DNA from: a virus
DNA: 42,376 nucleotides
Strand: one strand, 5' to 3'
Virus record (IMG/VR): IMGVR_UViG_3300048091_000123
Location: 1 to 42,376 of that record
Position 1 is the first letter of the stretch. Every line of letters begins with the position of its first letter. Below the pieces are notes generated by a model. It did not search any database. It was not told where the DNA came from and worked only from the letters and a program-made list of their open reading frames with translations. This document shows, piece after piece, positions 50 to 42,376 of the stretch. The position numbers and the translations under genes were made by a program.

Positions 50-126
50 CGGGGCGTAGCGCAGTCCGGTAGCGCACTAGCATGGGGTGCTAGGGGTCGA
101 GTGTTCGAATCACTCCGTCCCGACCA
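50..126 (+). tRNA. tRNA-Pro (anticodon GGG)
   Basis: A full 77-nt cloverleaf can be drawn. The acceptor stem pairs CGGGGCG with CGTCCCG and is followed by ACCA. The anticodon stem CTAGC/GCTAG (77-81/89-93) encloses the loop ATGGGGT with GGG at 84-86, and the T arm carries GTTCGAATC. The gene is complete and the phage integrase lies just downstream in the opposite orientation, so this tRNA is very likely the integration target and stays functional after insertion. Confidence 0.95.
85..126 (+). other. Candidate attL (3' half of tRNA-Pro)
   Basis: Integrase-adjacent tRNA 3' ends are the usual attachment sites of lambdoid phages. The core cannot be delimited because the right junction (attR) lies outside the window. 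The extent given is the anticodon-loop-to-3'-end half and is an inference. Confidence 0.45.
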
Positions 127-22186: not shown

Positions 22187-22354
22187 ATTGCCTAGAGCCG
22201 TAACCAGGGCGACCTCACGGAACGCTCGGACACTGATAAGCCGGCAAGTGCAAAGTTACGAAAAGACACCGGCAGCCCGCGCCCCGGGACCTCAACATGC
22301 TTGCATGCGTGGCGTGAGACTGGGACAGCGGGAAAGACTGCGCACCTATTCAGG

Positions 22355-34753: not shown

Positions 34754-35224
34754 ATGGCTTTGCGATTGAGCAACAAAGACCAGAACATCTCGGAATCCAA
34801 GTGGGTCGCCTATGACGACGACACCAAAGTGTTGCTGGCACGAATTGATAATCCTGAATATCAAGTTGCCCTTGAGCGGGAACGTCGCAAGCTGCGCGCC
34901 GCTGACGCCCAGTTCGGTGTCGGTGTAGTGGGCGCAGTCGAAGGTGAGGTGACCGAGCATCAGACCCAGTGCAAGCTGATTAGCCAGTTCATCGTCAAGA
35001 ACTGGGTCGGCGTGCAGGATGCGGACGGTAACCCGCTGGCGTACAGCGCCGAAGCTGCCGAGCAGATGCTCGACGCAAACATCGAATTCTTTCTGTTCGT
35101 CCTGCGCGAATCTGGCAAGGCCGCCATCGAGGCGAAAAAGGCCCTGGATGAGACCTTGGGAAAGTCGTTGCCCGCTTCGAGTGGGAAAAAGAGTGGGGCG
35201 GCGAGACAGAAAAGCGCCGACTGA
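34754..35224 (+). CDS. Tail assembly chaperone G
   Basis: The 156-residue protein lies between tail tube and tape measure genes, the fixed position of the tail assembly chaperone. It has an N-terminal beta part (NISESKWVAYDDDTKVLLAR) and helices (QTQCKLISQFIVKNWVGVQD, AEQMLDANIEFFLFVLRESG). A lambda-type slippery heptamer GGGAAAG occurs at codons 135-137, so this is the unshifted product. Confidence 0.82.
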   Translation: MALRLSNKDQNISESKWVAYDDDTKVLLARIDNPEYQVALERERRKLRAADAQFGVGVVGAVEGEVTEHQTQCKLISQFIVKNWVGVQDADGNPLAYSAEAAEQMLDANIEFFLFVLRESGKAAIEAKKALDETLGKSLPASSGKKSGAARQKSAD

Positions 35225-35481
35225 TTTACCAGCGGCTTGGCATGGCGATTCCAGATGAGCCGGAAACGGACCCGATCACGGCTTACCTGCTGAACCTCTA
35301 TCGCAACGTCTGCCGCGGCCGCCGGTACATCGCCGGCATGGCTGGTGCATTCCCGCTACCTCTGTCGGCCCGCGAGATCTCCGACTGGCTTGAGTCGCAT
35401 CCATCCCCACTGCCACGCGACGAGATAGACGAGGTGATGTTCGCGCTGGATGCGGTGAGCTTGGTTACTGATGAAGAGTGA
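34754..35481 (+). CDS. Tail assembly chaperone GT, made by -1 frameshift
   Basis: GGGAAAG at 35158-35164 is placed as G GGA AAG in the G frame, the same heptamer as lambda G/GT. After slipping back one base, reading continues at 35164 with VVARFEWEKEWGGETEKRRL and runs to TGA at 35479-35481, a total of about 242 residues. The T part contains YLLNLYRNVCRGRRYIAGMA and EIDEVMFALDAV. The second frame is open and protein-like right from the heptamer, and its only internal ATG (35242) has no ribosome site, so a separate gene is unlikely. GT bridges the tape measure and tube protein in assembly. Confidence 0.85.
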
Positions 35482-35518
35482 AATCACATGATGCGGCAGG
35501 GCCGCGGGAGAATGAGGC

Positions 35519-35743
35519 ATGAATCAGCAACAAGTCGAGAATCTTGAGATGCGGCTGACATGTATCGAAAATCAGCTTACGCACATTCTCTGTGCCCTGC
35601 GGAGCGCCAAGCCAGATGGCGTTGCAGCTTGCGCGACTACTGGGAAATCAGCGGAGGATGCTGCTCCACTAGGGGCTGCAATAACGGGCATAACCACTAG
35701 ACGGACGTTCAACCCAAGTAGAGGCGATAAATATCTTTCTTAA
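35519..35743 (+). CDS. Small protein at the start of the accessory island
   Basis: The 74-residue frame has a helical start (NQQQVENLEMRLTCIENQLT) and a loose C-terminus. GGGAGAATGAGG lies upstream of the ATG. The last 35 nt overlap the convergent protease gene. It may be expressed with the tail operon. Function unknown. Confidence 0.5.
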   Translation: MNQQQVENLEMRLTCIENQLTHILCALRSAKPDGVAACATTGKSAEDAAPLGAAITGITTRRTFNPSRGDKYLS

Positions 35744-36185
35744 AATTCATGATCAAGACGCCGCACTCGATTAAATGCATTCCTATGATTAAATGCTCGG
35801 TAGCGGGACTATTTCTCAGAGTTGCTGAAAATATCTGAGTTTCAAGCTGTGCAGCTGCCTCAGGGAAGAATAGGTGACCTAGGTGTTGAGTGCTTTCGGT
35901 TGCGCCAGCAGTTGCTCCATGAGTCATGCTCGTACCCGTCTGGGGGCAGCCTGCAGTCATGATCGTATCAGGCGTCGCGTAGTTTTGATCTGCGCCCGTA
36001 TCCAGCAAGGCGTAGATAGGGCGATAACTCAGCGGCGCTCGGGGGCCATTTGAATGGTCGGGATCGTATCTCAGTACCACCTGTACAACCGGTCGGCCCG
36101 GCGGATGATCAGAGACACTGCCATCTACTCCCATGAACCTGATAGGGGCGTATTTCAATCCATCCGGTGCTGAGTATTCACTCAC
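35709..36185 (-). CDS. Retropepsin-like aspartic protease
   Basis: The 158-residue protein has IYALLDTGADQNYATPDTI with the catalytic triplet Asp62-Thr63-Gly64 followed by Ala, flanked by hydrophobic residues as in retroviral-type proteases, and LIIGMHLIECGVLIMNFKK (132-150), the counterpart of the ILG(M/R)D psi-loop near the C-terminus. One catalytic Asp per chain implies action as a dimer. The start is a GTG with GGAGG five bases upstream; the frame stays open further upstream without a good start. It is leftward inside the tail operon and AT-richer than the tail genes. Substrate unknown; a virion role is possible but the orientation argues for lysogen expression. Confidence 0.75.
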   Translation of the reverse strand: MSEYSAPDGLKYAPIRFMGVDGSVSDHPPGRPVVQVVLRYDPDHSNGPRAPLSYRPIYALLDTGADQNYATPDTIMTAGCPQTGTSMTHGATAGATESTQHLGHLFFPEAAAQLETQIFSATLRNSPATEHLIIGMHLIECGVLIMNFKKDIYRLYLG

Positions 36186-36328
36186 ATCGACCTCCAGGTC
36201 ATAAACGCGCCGAAATTGGCGCAATCCCAGTCCTTGGGCTTGCAGGCAAAAGAACTGGGGGTGTCCGTTGCGTGGAGGCAGGAGGCTACTACGGAGATTG
36301 TCGGTGCGTTACTGGGGATTCGTACAGT

Positions 36329-36356
36329 TTGACTCATGGGTTTATGATGTTAAATT
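36329..36356 (+). promoter_or_regulatory. Candidate promoter for the small gene at 36395
   Basis: TTGACT (36329-36334) and TAAATT (36351-36356) are 16 nt apart in an AT-rich stretch upstream of the gene, which is then closed by a terminator at 36601. Confidence 0.5.
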
Positions 36357-36394
36357 GATAGCGCACTCGGTTCGTTACTAAGGATGGTTTATTC

Positions 36395-36577
36395 ATGAGC
36401 GGTTCAGGTAAGCAGTGGTTCACTGCAAAATATCGTCATCAAAAGCCAGGTTCTCAGAGTGCGACAACTGGATCGAAGCCGTTTTTTGTCTTCACCCAGC
36501 AAGAAGCGAATGATCTATGCACCGCTGAGCTGAAAGCCAAGTATCCAGGCTACAGCATCACTGTAACTCGAGGCTGA
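36395..36577 (+). CDS. Small basic accessory protein
   Basis: The 60-residue protein starts SGSGKQWFTAKYRHQKPGSQ and ends in a helix plus strand (TQQEANDLCTAELKAKYPGY). AAGGATGG precedes the ATG. A promoter-like sequence upstream and an intrinsic terminator 24 nt downstream make it a self-contained unit. Family not recognised. Confidence 0.6.
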   Translation: MSGSGKQWFTAKYRHQKPGSQSATTGSKPFFVFTQQEANDLCTAELKAKYPGYSITVTRG

Positions 36578-36600
36578 ATCCCTCTGTTTCTTTGGTCAGA

Positions 36601-36628
36601 AGCCCAGCGGTCGTGCTGGGCTTTTTTT
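36601..36628 (+). terminator. Intrinsic terminator
   Basis: AGCCCAGC (36601-36608) pairs perfectly with GCTGGGCT (36615-36622), followed by a T run to 36628. It ends the small accessory gene's transcript. Confidence 0.88.
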
Positions 36629-36664
36629 CATCTGGCGTACATGGGAAAAGCCCGATGGGCCGGG

Positions 36665-36928
36665 CTACTCTTGGATTGGTTTAGCCTGCTGATCGAGAAG
36701 GTCCAGAAGCATCTGGTCGTGTGACGCGCGTGTTGTCCTATAGAACATGCATCGATCTAGAAGGATCCGTTTCATGCTCCGAGCCGACGCAAGGTGCTTG
36801 GGCTCGACAGAGATCGTCGCGGTCTTTCCGCTGCGAGTATCGGTCACTTCCAGGTGATAGCGCCAAATCAAGCCGTCGTCTCGTTTGGTGTGGCCGAGGC
36901 ATTTGAAGCTGAGGACGGTCTCTGTCAT
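36665..36928 (-). CDS. Leftward small accessory protein
   Basis: The 87-residue protein starts TETVLSFKCLGHTKRDDGLI, with a beta-rich first half (IWRYHLEVTDTRSGKTATIS) and a helical second half (SMKRILLDRCMFYRTTRASH). GGAG lies 7 nt before the ATG at 36928; longer in-frame starts lack one. It is isolated by terminators on both sides. No family recognised. Confidence 0.6.
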   Translation of the reverse strand: MTETVLSFKCLGHTKRDDGLIWRYHLEVTDTRSGKTATISVEPKHLASARSMKRILLDRCMFYRTTRASHDQMLLDLLDQQAKPIQE

Positions 36929-36975
36929 ACAGGTCTCCATGTTGACTGAATGTGTGTAAATCCTTATCCATCTCA

Positions 36976-36998
36976 AGCCCAGCTCGCGTTGGGTTTTT
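36976..36998 (+). terminator. Terminator-like hairpin
   Basis: AGCCCAGC (36976-36983, starting at the second A) pairs with GTTGGGTT (36988-36995, two G-T pairs) and is followed by T to 36998. It lies upstream of the leftward gene and before the immunity-type gene, so it would insulate the latter from upstream rightward transcription. Confidence 0.55.
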
Positions 36999-37078
36999 CG
37001 TGCCGGGGATGCATACAGGTAATTTTGGTGCTTCCTGTGGATGATGGTAAATTGGTGGCATTTTAAAAGGTGGTTTAA

Positions 37079-37414
37079 ATGGCTGACGAAAAAGGTGTGC
37101 TGGGTGCGCTGCTACTGGTTTTCATATGTGTCTTCGTCTACTTCATTCCGAGCATTCATGCGAAAAACCGTCGACACCCCAATCTGAAATCGATCTTCCT
37201 GCTAAATATCTTTCTTGGCTGGACGCTGATCGGCTGGGTCGTCGCGCTAGTTTGGGCTGCGGCGGCAATTCCGCCTATTGAACATATAAAAGTTAGAGAA
37301 CCTGAAAGTGGCGATAAGTATCAAAGCTTAGGACGGCTGGCTGAGCTGAAGGACAAGGGCATTATCACCGAAAAAGAATTCGAAACAGAAAAGGCGAAGC
37401 TTTTGCAGAGCTAA
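37079..37414 (+). CDS. Superinfection-immunity-type membrane protein with SHOCT tail
   Basis: The protein has 111 residues. TM1 is about 7-25. HPNLKSIFLLNIFLGWTLIG (33-52) followed by WVVALVWAA is the signature of the Imm_superinfect family, named for T4 Imm, which blocks DNA entry of related phages. The C-terminal LGRLAELKDKGIITEKEFET then EKAKLL is a SHOCT oligomerisation motif. AAAGGTGG precedes the ATG, and a strong terminator follows at 37433. AT-rich relative to the tail genes. Exclusion of superinfecting phage is the likely role in the lysogen, inferred from the family. Confidence 0.85.
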   Translation: MADEKGVLGALLLVFICVFVYFIPSIHAKNRRHPNLKSIFLLNIFLGWTLIGWVVALVWAAAAIPPIEHIKVREPESGDKYQSLGRLAELKDKGIITEKEFETEKAKLLQS

Positions 37415-37432
37415 GTACAAACAACCAAAACG

Positions 37433-37457
37433 AGCCCGCACTGTGCGGGCTTTTTTT
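37433..37457 (+). terminator. Intrinsic terminator before the tape measure gene
   Basis: AGCCCGCA (37433-37440) pairs perfectly with TGCGGGCT (37444-37451) around CTG and is followed by T to 37457. The tape measure ATG comes only 17 nt later, so late transcripts must read through it. Confidence 0.88.
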
Positions 37458-37473
37458 CGCCCGGAGAAAAATA

Positions 37474-40404
37474 ATGGCCCAAACATCCCGCCTTGTCATT
37501 GAGCTTGACAGCCGAGACGCTGAAGCAAAGGCCGCGGACACTCGCAAGGCGCTTGAGGCGCTGGAAGACGCGGGCCTGAGCATTCAGCCGGCACTGAACA
37601 AGGCCGGCGCCGGCATGGAGAAGATGGGCAAGGACGCCGAAAAGGCTGCCAAGTCCATCGAGGGTGAAGCCGACGAGCTGGAGAGGCTGCTGGGTCAGAT
37701 TGATCCAGTGGTGCGCCGCTTGGGAGAGCTGGACAAGCAAGAGCAGGACCTGGCCAAGCATCGCAAGACCGGCAAGCTTGACGTCGCCACCTACAACGAG
37801 TACCAATCGAAAATCGCCGCGACCCGCGCCGAGCTCGGCCGCTTCAATGCCGATCTCGGCAAGACCGGTATATCCGCCAAACAGACGGCGGCGGCCCTGC
37901 GCGGCGTGCCGGCGCAATTCACCGACATCGCGGTATCGCTCCAGGGCGGACAGAATCCACTGACGGTGTTCCTGCAGCAAGGCGGCCAGCTGAAGGATAT
38001 GTTCGGCGGCGCTGGGCCGGCGGCCAAGGCACTTGGCAGCTACGTGCTAGGTTTGGTCAACCCGTTCACTGTCGCAGCTGCGGCAGTCGGCACTCTGGGC
38101 CTGGCCTACTACCAAGGCTCGCAGGAAGCGGACGCATTCCGACTATCTCTTGTCACCACCGGCAATGGCGCGGGCACTACGGCGCTCGCATTGGCGGGTA
38201 TGGCCACCACCATCAGCTCTACCGTTGGTACCACCGGCAAGGCTACCGAGACGCTGGCTTTGCTGGCATCGAACGGCAAGATCGCCAGCTCCAGCTTCGA
38301 GCAGATTGCCACGGCGGCCATCAGCTTCGAAAGCGCCACCGGCAAGGCGGTGTCGGCTACAGTGGCCGAGTTTGCCTCGCTGGCTGACGATCCGGTCAAG
38401 GCGCTGGCGACTCTCAACGAAAAATACAATTTCCTCACCGCTTCGATTTACGAGCAGGTGCGCGCAGCCCGGGAAATGGGCGAGAAGGACGCGGCGGTGG
38501 CGATCGCCCAACAAGCCTATGCCAAAACGCTGGAGGCACGCGCCAAGACCATCAAGGAAAGCCTCGGTACTATCGAGACCGCCTGGAATGCCATCACGGG
38601 CGCAGCGAAAAGCGGCTGGGACGCCATGCTCGGCGTCGGCCGTCAGCAGTCACTCGATGAGCAGATCGCAAACACCAAGCAGCTGTTGGAGGATCGCAAG
38701 TCCAGCTTCGCGGCGAAAATGTTCCCCGATACGCTCGGCGAAGGCAGCGATTCGACCAGGTTCCTACAGACTCGGCAGAATCTGCTCGAAAAGCAGAAGC
38801 TACTGCTCGCTGATCAAGGCAAGTCCGAAGGCGAAAATGCTCGCATCCAGCGCGACGGGCAGAAGGCGTACGAGGATTTCCAGAAGAGCATCGAGGCGAA
38901 TTTCACCAAGCGCCAGAAGATGAACAAGGACCTTCTGGATGAGGAAAAACGCATTGCTGCGGCGCGTGCGGCGGGCTACACCATCACTGCAGAGCAGGAG
39001 GCGGCATCCCTAAAGGCCATCCGAGAGAACGAGAAGTACAAGGAGGCCAAAGGACCAAAAGCCAAGGCCTACACCGAAGACGCCGGCATGAAAATGCTCG
39101 ACTCGTCGCGCCAAGCTTACGCTGTGCTCATACAGCAGAACGCAGCGATCAGCGATCAAGGCACCAAGAACGAAAAGCTCGGTGCTCAGGCTCAGGCCCT
39201 GATCCGCTGGGAGCAGCAGCTGGCCGACCTAAAGTCGAAAAGCACGCTCACTGCCGATCAAAAGGCCCTACTGGCCAGCCAGGACCTGATCACCGCCCAG
39301 CTCAAGAAGAACTCGGCACTTGAGAAGGAGGTCGAGCTACGCAAGGCATCCAAGGAAGAAGCCGAGAAGCTGGCCGCCTTTCAGGTCAACCAAGACAGCA
39401 GGCTCAGCACCGCCAAAGAGGGGCTGGATTCAAACCTTGCTGGTATAGGCCTGGGCGACCAAGCGCGGGACCGGCTCAAGCAGGACATGGCCATCCAACG
39501 CGACTACGCCAGGCAGTCGGCCGACCTCCTGGAGCAGCGCAACACTGGGAAAATCAGCCCCGATCTGTACGCCAAGGAGAATGCGGTAATTCAGCAGGGC
39601 CTGGCTGACCGACTTGCCATGCAGCGGCAGTATTACTCGGACGTAGATAAGGCACAGTCGGACTGGTCTATCGGCGCTTCGTCGGCATTTCAGAACTACG
39701 CCGAACAGGCCGCTGACGTCGCCGGACAAACCCGCAACCTGTTCACAAACGCCTTCAGCAACATGGAAGACGGGATTGTTAATTTCGTGAAGACCGGGAA
39801 GCTGTCCTTCAGTGATCTGGCTGACGGAATAATCGCCGACCTGGTCAGAATCCAGGTGCGCCAGGCGGCGGTGGGTATCTTCGGCAGTTTGTTCAGTGGG
39901 TTGGCCGGGGCCGGGGCTGTTGCGGCGGGTAATGGTCTAGCCGCTGGGTCAGCCGGTGCGACGTCTTCGAGTCTCGGTGCTTCGGCTGCTGGCTACAGCT
40001 CTAAATTCGGATTCTCCGACGGCGGCTACACCGGCGACGGCGGCAAGTTCGAACCGAAGGGCGTGGTGCACGGCGGTGAGTTCGTTGTGCGCAAGGACGT
40101 GGTCAGCCAGCCGGGTGCCCGGGAATTCCTCGAGCGCATGAACGCAAACTCGAAAGGGTATGCGAATGGCGGGTATGTGGGATCGACCGGGGCGGGGACC
40201 ACTTCAAGCGTCCTGCCGGTTTCCTCGGCCTCAACTGCTGCTCCGGTCATCCAGCAAAGCTTCAGCTTTCAGGGCACACCGGACGACGCCACCGTCAACA
40301 TGGTCAAAGAGGCCGCGATGCAGGGGGCGAAAGGCGGTTACGAGCTGGTCGTGCGCGACCTGAAAATGAACGGCACCATCCGCCAGCTGATCGCGCGGCG
40401 CTAA
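37474..40404 (+). CDS. Tail tape measure protein (lambda family)
   Basis: The 976-residue protein sets tail length. The N-terminal 130 residues are coiled coil (DAEAKAADTRKALEALEDAG), followed by the TMP_2-type core (GVPAQFTDIAVSLQGGQNPL then TVFLQQGGQLKDMFGGAG, near 147-185), a hydrophobic segment (VNPFTVAAAAVGTLGLAYYQ), long helical repeats, and the C-terminal region with GYTGDGGKFEPKGVVHGGEF typical of lambda H relatives. GGAG precedes the ATG, close after the terminator at 37433. Confidence 0.95.
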   Translation: MAQTSRLVIELDSRDAEAKAADTRKALEALEDAGLSIQPALNKAGAGMEKMGKDAEKAAKSIEGEADELERLLGQIDPVVRRLGELDKQEQDLAKHRKTGKLDVATYNEYQSKIAATRAELGRFNADLGKTGISAKQTAAALRGVPAQFTDIAVSLQGGQNPLTVFLQQGGQLKDMFGGAGPAAKALGSYVLGLVNPFTVAAAAVGTLGLAYYQGSQEADAFRLSLVTTGNGAGTTALALAGMATTISSTVGTTGKATETLALLASNGKIASSSFEQIATAAISFESATGKAVSATVAEFASLADDPVKALATLNEKYNFLTASIYEQVRAAREMGEKDAAVAIAQQAYAKTLEARAKTIKESLGTIETAWNAITGAAKSGWDAMLGVGRQQSLDEQIANTKQLLEDRKSSFAAKMFPDTLGEGSDSTRFLQTRQNLLEKQKLLLADQGKSEGENARIQRDGQKAYEDFQKSIEANFTKRQKMNKDLLDEEKRIAAARAAGYTITAEQEAASLKAIRENEKYKEAKGPKAKAYTEDAGMKMLDSSRQAYAVLIQQNAAISDQGTKNEKLGAQAQALIRWEQQLADLKSKSTLTADQKALLASQDLITAQLKKNSALEKEVELRKASKEEAEKLAAFQVNQDSRLSTAKEGLDSNLAGIGLGDQARDRLKQDMAIQRDYARQSADLLEQRNTGKISPDLYAKENAVIQQGLADRLAMQRQYYSDVDKAQSDWSIGASSAFQNYAEQAADVAGQTRNLFTNAFSNMEDGIVNFVKTGKLSFSDLADGIIADLVRIQVRQAAVGIFGSLFSGLAGAGAVAAGNGLAAGSAGATSSSLGASAAGYSSKFGFSDGGYTGDGGKFEPKGVVHGGEFVVRKDVVSQPGAREFLERMNANSKGYANGGYVGSTGAGTTSSVLPVSSASTAAPVIQQSFSFQGTPDDATVNMVKEAAMQGAKGGYELVVRDLKMNGTIRQLIARR

Positions 40405-41612: not shown

Positions 41613-42011
41613 ATGCGCTACCGAGACTGGACAACCCGTCTGAACGAAGTGATCAAGGCCGCCCAAGAGCGGCCTTTTTCATGGGGCGAATTTGACTGCT
41701 GCTTGTTCGCGGCTGACTGCACTTTGGCCATTTGTGGCGTGGACCCAGCCGAAAACTACCGCGGCAAGTATACGACCGAGACCGGTGCCAAGCGGCAACT
41801 GAAGAAGCAGCACGGCAGCCTCGAGGCGGCATGGGATGCCCGTTTCGTAAGGGTGCCGCTGACCTTCATTCAGCGCGGAGACGTAGTGCTGTACGACGCG
41901 CCTGGCGGCCGAAGCATGGCCGTGTTCTGGGCAGGTGATTTCTGGGCAACAACTGACGACGGCGCAGCCCGAGTCGAATGCGAGCCACTGGCCGCGTGGA
42001 GGGTTGAATGA
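41613..42011 (+). CDS. Tail assembly protein with NlpC/P60-like Cys motif (DUF6950 type)
   Basis: The 132-residue protein has RPFSWGEFDCCLFAADCTLA near 22-41, the Cys-containing helix start of NlpC/P60-like hydrolases. RVPLTFIQRGDVVLYDAPGG and MAVFWAGDFWA follow, where the catalytic His would normally lie but is not evident. It is in the place of lambda K, which helps tail tip assembly and may cut peptidoglycan. The apparent loss of the His suggests a structural role. Confidence 0.78.
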   Translation: MRYRDWTTRLNEVIKAAQERPFSWGEFDCCLFAADCTLAICGVDPAENYRGKYTTETGAKRQLKKQHGSLEAAWDARFVRVPLTFIQRGDVVLYDAPGGRSMAVFWAGDFWATTDDGAARVECEPLAAWRVE

Positions 42012-42376
42012 GCGGCGGCGTTAAAAAACTCGCGCAGGTAGTCGTTGGCGCGGTCATCGGTGGCTTTCAGGGTGGCCCATGGGGTGCGGTTGCCGGTGCC
42101 GCCTTGGCGTTCTATGCAGCCGAACAGCAGGAAAAGCTCAACACCAAGTCACCTTTGCGCGACAACGAGCCGTCAGCGCAGACCGTACGGTCCTCCAAGG
42201 CGCCGGTGCGCTTCATCCTTGGCCGGGTTTCCACCGGCGGCGTGCTGGTTTGGGCGCAGGAGCAAGCGGGTGAGCAGGGCGAGGGCGAATGGCTGCACCT
42301 GGTCTACGTTTTGTGTGAAGGCGCCATTGATGCGCTGGAAAACATCTACCTGGGCGAAGAGGAAATCGGTTCGTTT
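42008..42376 (+). CDS. Tail tip / host-specificity protein, N-terminal part (cut by window end)
   Basis: The first 123 residues are visible and open to the last base. A Gly/Ala-rich membrane-like start (KKLAQVVVGAVIGGFQGGPW then GAVAGAALAFYAAEQQEKL) fits the lambda I-like segment fused or adjacent to J. FILGRVSTGGVLVWAQEQAG and LHLVYVLCEGAIDALENIYL are typical of the start of J-type tip proteins. ATGA overlap with the gene before. The product would bind the host receptor; the deciding C-terminus is outside the window. Confidence 0.85.
   Translation, partial: MSGGVKKLAQVVVGAVIGGFQGGPWGAVAGAALAFYAAEQQEKLNTKSPLRDNEPSAQTVRSSKAPVRFILGRVSTGGVLVWAQEQAGEQGEGEWLHLVYVLCEGAIDALENIYLGEEEIGSF

Follow-up and report, generated by a model that had tools for sequence, protein, structure and literature searches.

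The 1,992-nt island at positions 35482-37473 of a 42,376-nt stretch of DNA from a Pseudomonas phage (the whole of which we call the window) separates the tail-assembly chaperone gene T from the gene for the tape measure protein (TMP), and this junction is a hot spot for morons that is assembled from portable modules, a type of site already known in kind. At the left end of the island an antisense gene for a retropepsin-like protease converges upon a small sense gene, p1. Taken as a whole, the island is best explained in our estimation (probability about 0.55) as a convergent blocker/antidote unit sited at a moron hot spot.

Layout of the island and variation at the T-TMP junction

The island carries five small genes on both strands (p1, p3 and the Imm/SHOCT gene on the plus strand; the retropepsin-like gene and p4 on the minus strand), and its GC content is 50-53% compared with about 60-63% on either side. 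The features located in and beside it are collected in Table 1. Pairwise dN/dS values between island genes and their relatives were 0.06-0.47 where computable, with some pairs saturated, and the island ORFs therefore look like real genes. The preliminary description had placed five small genes, distributed over the two strands, and at least three terminators between T and TMP, all of which were located in the window. One additional ORF of 51 aa at 36182-36337 (-), which overlaps P and A, was taken as spurious. To the left of the island, GGGAAAAAG at 35183-35191 (+), near the end of G, may be the slippery sequence from which a G-T frameshift product arises.

Table 1. Features of the T-TMP junction in the window (positions are those of the window)
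Feature	Position	Strand	Evidence
T, tail-assembly chaperone (left border)	35242-35481	+	phrog_1189 2e-27; Phage_TAC_18 0.0022
Element C, sense-gene leader: hairpin GCGGC-AGG-GCCGC, then Shine-Dalgarno site	35482-35518 (core 35490-35509)	+	core GATGCGGCAGGGCCGCAGGA
p1, 74 aa, sense (late-strand) partner, candidate antidote	35519-35743	+	retropepsin co-occurrence; overlap
Retropepsin-like aspartic protease, 158 aa, DTGAD motif	35709-36185	-	motif, profile, fold
Element A, leader of about 80 nt directly ahead of the retropepsin start	36185-36267	-	covariance model; recurrence
Module P, promoter-like pair, core CCAGTAAC-N16-TAGTAGC	36285-36315	-	recurrence upstream of A
Operator-like block CTGTACGAATCCCCAG upstream of P	36312-36327	-	exact extended block in 27 loci, one mismatch in 21
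Sigma70-like promoter TTGACT-16-TAAATT with TG, ahead of p3	36329-36356	+	consensus scan only
p3, 60 aa	36395-36577	+	homologues in L122, L161 (85%) and L145; dN/dS 0.06
Intrinsic terminator 3' of p3	36601-36625	+	hairpin/T-run scan; fold z -4.9
p4, 87 aa, convergent with p3, ATG start at 36928	36665-36928	-	homologues
Terminator-like hairpin and T run	36975-36997	+	scan; fold z -2.7 (-2.65)
Element B, TTTGGTGCTTCCTGTGGATGATGGTAAATT, promoter-like, ahead of Imm	37024-37053	+	26 of 76 T-TMP loci; 39 viral stretches
Imm_superinfect + SHOCT membrane protein	37079-37414	+	PF14373 6.3e-18; PF09851 7.7e-8; phrog_1039 3e-20
Terminator hairpin ahead of TMP	37432-37452	both (scan match)	fold z -3.8
TMP, tape measure protein (right border)	37474-40404	+	TMP_2 1.6e-75

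A scan with the T protein yielded 80 loci, in 76 of which both T and TMP could be placed; the loci come from IMG/VR contigs, which are often fragmentary and in part closely related to one another, and this relatedness raises some of the counts given here. The gap between T and TMP ranged from 66 to 4835 nt with a median of 860 nt, and 6 of the 76 sites were empty. Imm was carried by 25 of the 76 loci, element B by 26, element A by 7 and the retropepsin by 4, with p1 occurring only alongside its retropepsin. Because both the length and the content of the gap vary across the 76 loci, the junction is a true cargo hot spot. The survey, together with the elements and terminators, bears out the proposal in the preliminary description of a cargo hot spot for several morons with their own start signals and terminators, and the frequencies of Imm and the retropepsin show that the same five genes are not fixed in all relatives. 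The accompanying statement that the GT and tape measure genes are normally adjacent holds for the empty-site forms but not otherwise, and the reading of the genes as independent morons has to be given up for p1 and the retropepsin-like gene, which form one convergent pair with dedicated leaders.

The retropepsin-like gene and its partner p1

The identification of the antisense gene as a retropepsin-like aspartic protease, first made in the preliminary description, finds good support in its motif, profile and predicted fold. The DTGAD motif is unchanged across seven homologues, and a second, hydrophobic-Gly motif is also present. Although the match to Pfam stayed below threshold (E 0.009), the family profile matched Ddi1 (PDB 4z2z, 3.3e-5), and a Foldseek search with the predicted fold, in which confidence was high for only one of the five AlphaFold models, returned FIV protease (7e-5) and the R. 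conorii retropepsin (1.4e-4). The start codon required correction: we set it at GTG 36185, behind a conserved Shine-Dalgarno site, rather than at TTG 36224, because the intervening 39 nt are part of the conserved leader. The window protein thus has the DTGA motif, the fold and the hydrophobic-Gly motif in common with Ddi1 and with the retropepsins of FIV and Rickettsia, but differs from them in that its gene stands alone, in antisense orientation, in a temperate phage, and it may represent the use of a retropepsin by a phage.

The 3' ends of p1 and the retropepsin-like gene overlap by 35 nt, and p1 has a dN/dS of 0.36-0.47. The pair recurs in two other loci (L007 and L062) and p1 accompanies the retropepsin in a third (L008), while other sense partners face the retropepsins of L032, L058 and L260. 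Comparison of p1 with the tail fibre protein J and with TMP revealed no resemblance (shuffle p 0.53 and 0.36, respectively), so that p1 as a mimic of either is not supported; it is the architecture of the pair that suggests an antidote role for p1.

Control modules A, P and C

Comparison of the island with its relatives revealed short, highly conserved DNA blocks beside unrelated genes. Element A consists, in order, of a hairpin (CCCAGTCC/GGACTGGG), a second hairpin (GCGCC/GGCGC), a Shine-Dalgarno site and the start codon; it is present as a single copy in the window (covariance model R1, E 4.4e-19; fold z -2.5) and has no match among the Rfam covariance models, so that its identity with an RNA known to Rfam was rejected. 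Copies of element A were found in more than 119 stretches of viral sequence and in 39 genome contigs (Pseudomonas in 38 cases), usually one per phage record, and the only INPHARED phages with it were three unannotated faecal contigs. The sole genome contig from outside Pseudomonas, a Methylotenera MAG contig (L269), may be a mis-binned phage contig. Downstream of element A lie 22 unrelated protein families.

Module P was found upstream of A in 101 contexts, among loci that had been gathered partly by exact pattern, with a spacer of variable sequence that was 17 nt long in 83 and 16 nt in 16; P is unique in the window, and shuffles contained none. It does not fit the sigma70 consensus, and we infer that it is promoter-like from its spacing and conservation. 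The operator-like block at P is either CTGTACGAATCCCCAG or, in the type 2 copies, the palindrome CATCCAGCGTGGATG. As a LexA/SOS box CTGTACGAATCCCCAG was rejected, the window containing no CTGT-N8-ACAG. Facing element A on the late strand, the core of element C was recovered with at most 5 mismatches in 111 of 141 loci, whereas the best matches on the opposite strand, which served as control, mostly had 6-9 mismatches and none had fewer than 5. In many loci an A/C-rich stretch, AACAACCAACA, precedes the element C hairpin, and presumably resembles Hfq/Crc target motifs. The promoter-like module P and the leader hairpin are both apparently undescribed.

The high DNA identity of these elements across otherwise unrelated phages, and the fact that cargo swaps occur at them, could also mean that A, B, C and P serve chiefly as recombination linkers, spread by homologous exchange, and that the cargo consists of random lysogenic conversion genes without a common theme. 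We consider this unlikely, as the elements keep the Shine-Dalgarno site, start codon and spacing, the P spacer is variable in sequence but fixed in length, and the pairing of the genes between the elements is non-random (see below). Linker and control roles may nevertheless coexist.

Antisense/sense pairs across Pseudomonas phages

The P/A/C modules recur in more than 100 Pseudomonas phage sites, placed antisense in tail operons, with at least 20 further pairs as their cargo. The A cassette mostly lies upstream of J, in the interval that separates K (Prok-JAB) from I (Lambda_tail_I), and in ten sites, the window type included, it adjoins G/T. Its strand was opposite to that of the neighboring gene in every cluster with K (80 of 80), I (82 of 82) or J (73 of 73), the identities being assigned by Pfam. 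The antisense proteins fall into 22 families and the sense proteins into 26, and a convergent overlap of the 3' ends was present in 100 of the 108 pairs parsed. For 105 distinct pairs, with kinship ignored, the mutual information of the pairing was 2.43 bits, a value that 1000 shuffles, none above 1.64, did not reach; sense and antisense partners are family-specific. One T-TMP site, that of phage Aurca01, has element C, a sense/antisense pair and P without A, and its proteins, judged by eye, resemble those paired at L271, a locus that does carry A. PADLOC and NCBIfam gave no convincing match, and a fold search with antisense family 0, a predicted four-helix bundle (pLDDT 87), was likewise without a match.

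Small paired genes, family-specific partners and convergent overlap are also features of toxin-antitoxin or addiction pairs, in which the antisense protein would harm the host, the sense partner or an antisense RNA would restrain it, and exclusion would be secondary. This explanation is improbable in our judgment: the units lie inside late tail operons wherever their neighbors were identified, roughly one sense protein in three is like J rather than like known antitoxins, and a sense gene silent in the lysogen would be unable to hold back a toxin there.

Sense proteins and the tail fibre J

Of 94 sense proteins, 29 scored above all 40 shuffles in a comparison with the J C-terminal half, as opposed to 2 with the N-terminal half of J and 1 with TMP, and none of the 90 antisense proteins did so against the C-terminal half. 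An example of this likeness is VPFLVGGDGRVYLNAAAIKDSTVTSAK in a sense protein and VPFAVQGGQVFLNSAFILDGTITNAK in J; matches of sense proteins to Phage_Tail_Tip were at E 0.02-0.03. A preference of sense proteins for their own J gave no clear signal in the few cases available. From the likeness of these sense proteins to J it seems that many of the blockers may act on J and that the corresponding antidotes may be decoys of it. The record of the window itself ends inside a tip protein gene (42009-42376, +) of the L296 type, which by eye is unlike the lambda-like J of the phages with K-I sites.

J-like segments and a position in the tail operon would equally suit sense proteins that are virion or tail-assembly accessories, such as J-derived tip subunits, regulated by the antisense genes and with no part in defence. 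However, the whole unit is missing from many relatives, as the empty T-TMP sites demonstrate, the antisense families are unrelated to one another and include a protease, and the antisense strand has a promoter-like module of its own, all of which make an accessory role of low probability. The blocker/antidote reading can tentatively be widened, at somewhat less than even odds, to a standard P/A/C chassis common to Pseudomonas phages which at two sites of the tail operon would carry more than 20 unrelated tail-interference systems with late antidotes, many of these being J decoys and one of the systems directing a retropepsin at incoming phage.

Proposed mechanism of the blocker/antidote unit

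In the model that we favor, the antisense gene, here that of the retropepsin, would be expressed from the prophage by means of the promoter-like module P and leader A, while the sense gene, here p1, with leader C would be expressed along with the late tail operon. In the lysogen the antisense gene alone would be on, and its product would attack a tail protein or some other late protein of related phages that superinfect the cell, in the case of the retropepsin presumably by cleavage. Upon induction, late transcription would run through the unit and shut off the antisense gene, either by collision or through antisense RNA; any antisense product still present would be bound and neutralised by the sense protein, in many pairs as a decoy of tail fibre J. 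We infer promoter activity, expression in the lysogen, phage exclusion and antidote activity by analogy with known systems. If the model is correct, every pair of genes flanked by P/A and C within a Pseudomonas tail operon can be regarded as a candidate for phage exclusion together with the matching antidote, and the late expression of tail-fibre look-alikes may be proposed as a rule of self-protection.

p3, p4, Imm and other features of the window

p3 and p4 form a second convergent set, which is found together in L122 and L161 as well; homologues of p4 (59-83%) occur in at least 14 loci. The presence of an Imm-superinfection gene, as given in the preliminary description, was confirmed by a PF14373 score of 64.8 bits against a curated cut-off of 27.9. 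In 24 of the 25 T-TMP loci with Imm, this gene ends 56-65 nt ahead of TMP, and element B, which precedes it in the window, was absent from shuffles of the window. Imm is a separate moron with B as its promoter-like element and would block DNA injection in the manner of HK97 gp15. The idea that Imm is matched to its own TMP was discarded, the variants of the two not being correlated (rho -0.24, n=25). To the left of element B and facing p4, CTGTATGCATCCCCGG at 37003-37018 (-) is a degenerate copy of the operator-like block of P, and in several loci (e.g., L049, L057, L099 and L243) element B stands back to back with P, with the look of a divergent promoter pair.

Elsewhere in the window, the Rfam Proteo-phage-1 RNA (RF03044) was matched at 22198-22277 (+) with 54.1 bits (E 3.7e-7), and a tRNA-Pro (ggg) at 50-126 (+), at the start of the record, is a plausible prophage attachment site.

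Comparison with known systems

The placement of Imm has a precedent in the HK97 gp15 moron, which occupies precisely the interval from GT to H, is followed by a terminator and likewise encodes a small membrane superinfection protein. gp15 has 62 aa, whereas the window has an Imm_superinfect + SHOCT protein and the promoter-like element B, and a comparison of gp15 with Imm gave no match at E<=1.

For the convergent pair, the same geometry is seen in Tab/anti-Tab of Pseudomonas phage JBD26, the function of which has been demonstrated and the target of which is TMP (PMC10884400). There, a minus-strand moron with its own promoter, directed against tail assembly, faces a plus-strand antidote of the late operon, and the 3' ends overlap by 47 nt, compared with 35 nt in the window; however, the JBD26 unit lies between terminase genes and is without P and A. 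One antisense protein matched Tab in a pairwise BLASTP (3e-5), but homology of the antisense proteins to Tab was not upheld by profiles (probability 0.8%, thus below 1%). Tai/Ati of phi80 is a noncontiguous operon with a lysogen-expressed tail-assembly inhibitor and a late antidote (PMC11364771). Its proteins are different ones and it is located upstream of the packaging module; the neighboring phi80 genes include no convergent pair with overlapping 3' ends, and P and A were not found in the phi80 stretch. In Tha/Ith of S. aureus phage 80alpha, an antisense layout parts lysogen immunity from the lytic antidote, and tail proteins act as the trigger (PMC11087260), but the roles of the strands are reversed, the antidote being the antisense gene, the effector is a HEPN RNase and the location is the lysogeny region. 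By analogy, the window unit would combine the architecture of Tab/anti-Tab with the logic of Tai/Ati and Tha/Ith, that is, a blocker in the lysogen and a late antidote, and would unite the scattered cases of Tab, Tai and Tha in one recognisable family, for the detection of which the DNA signature alone is enough.
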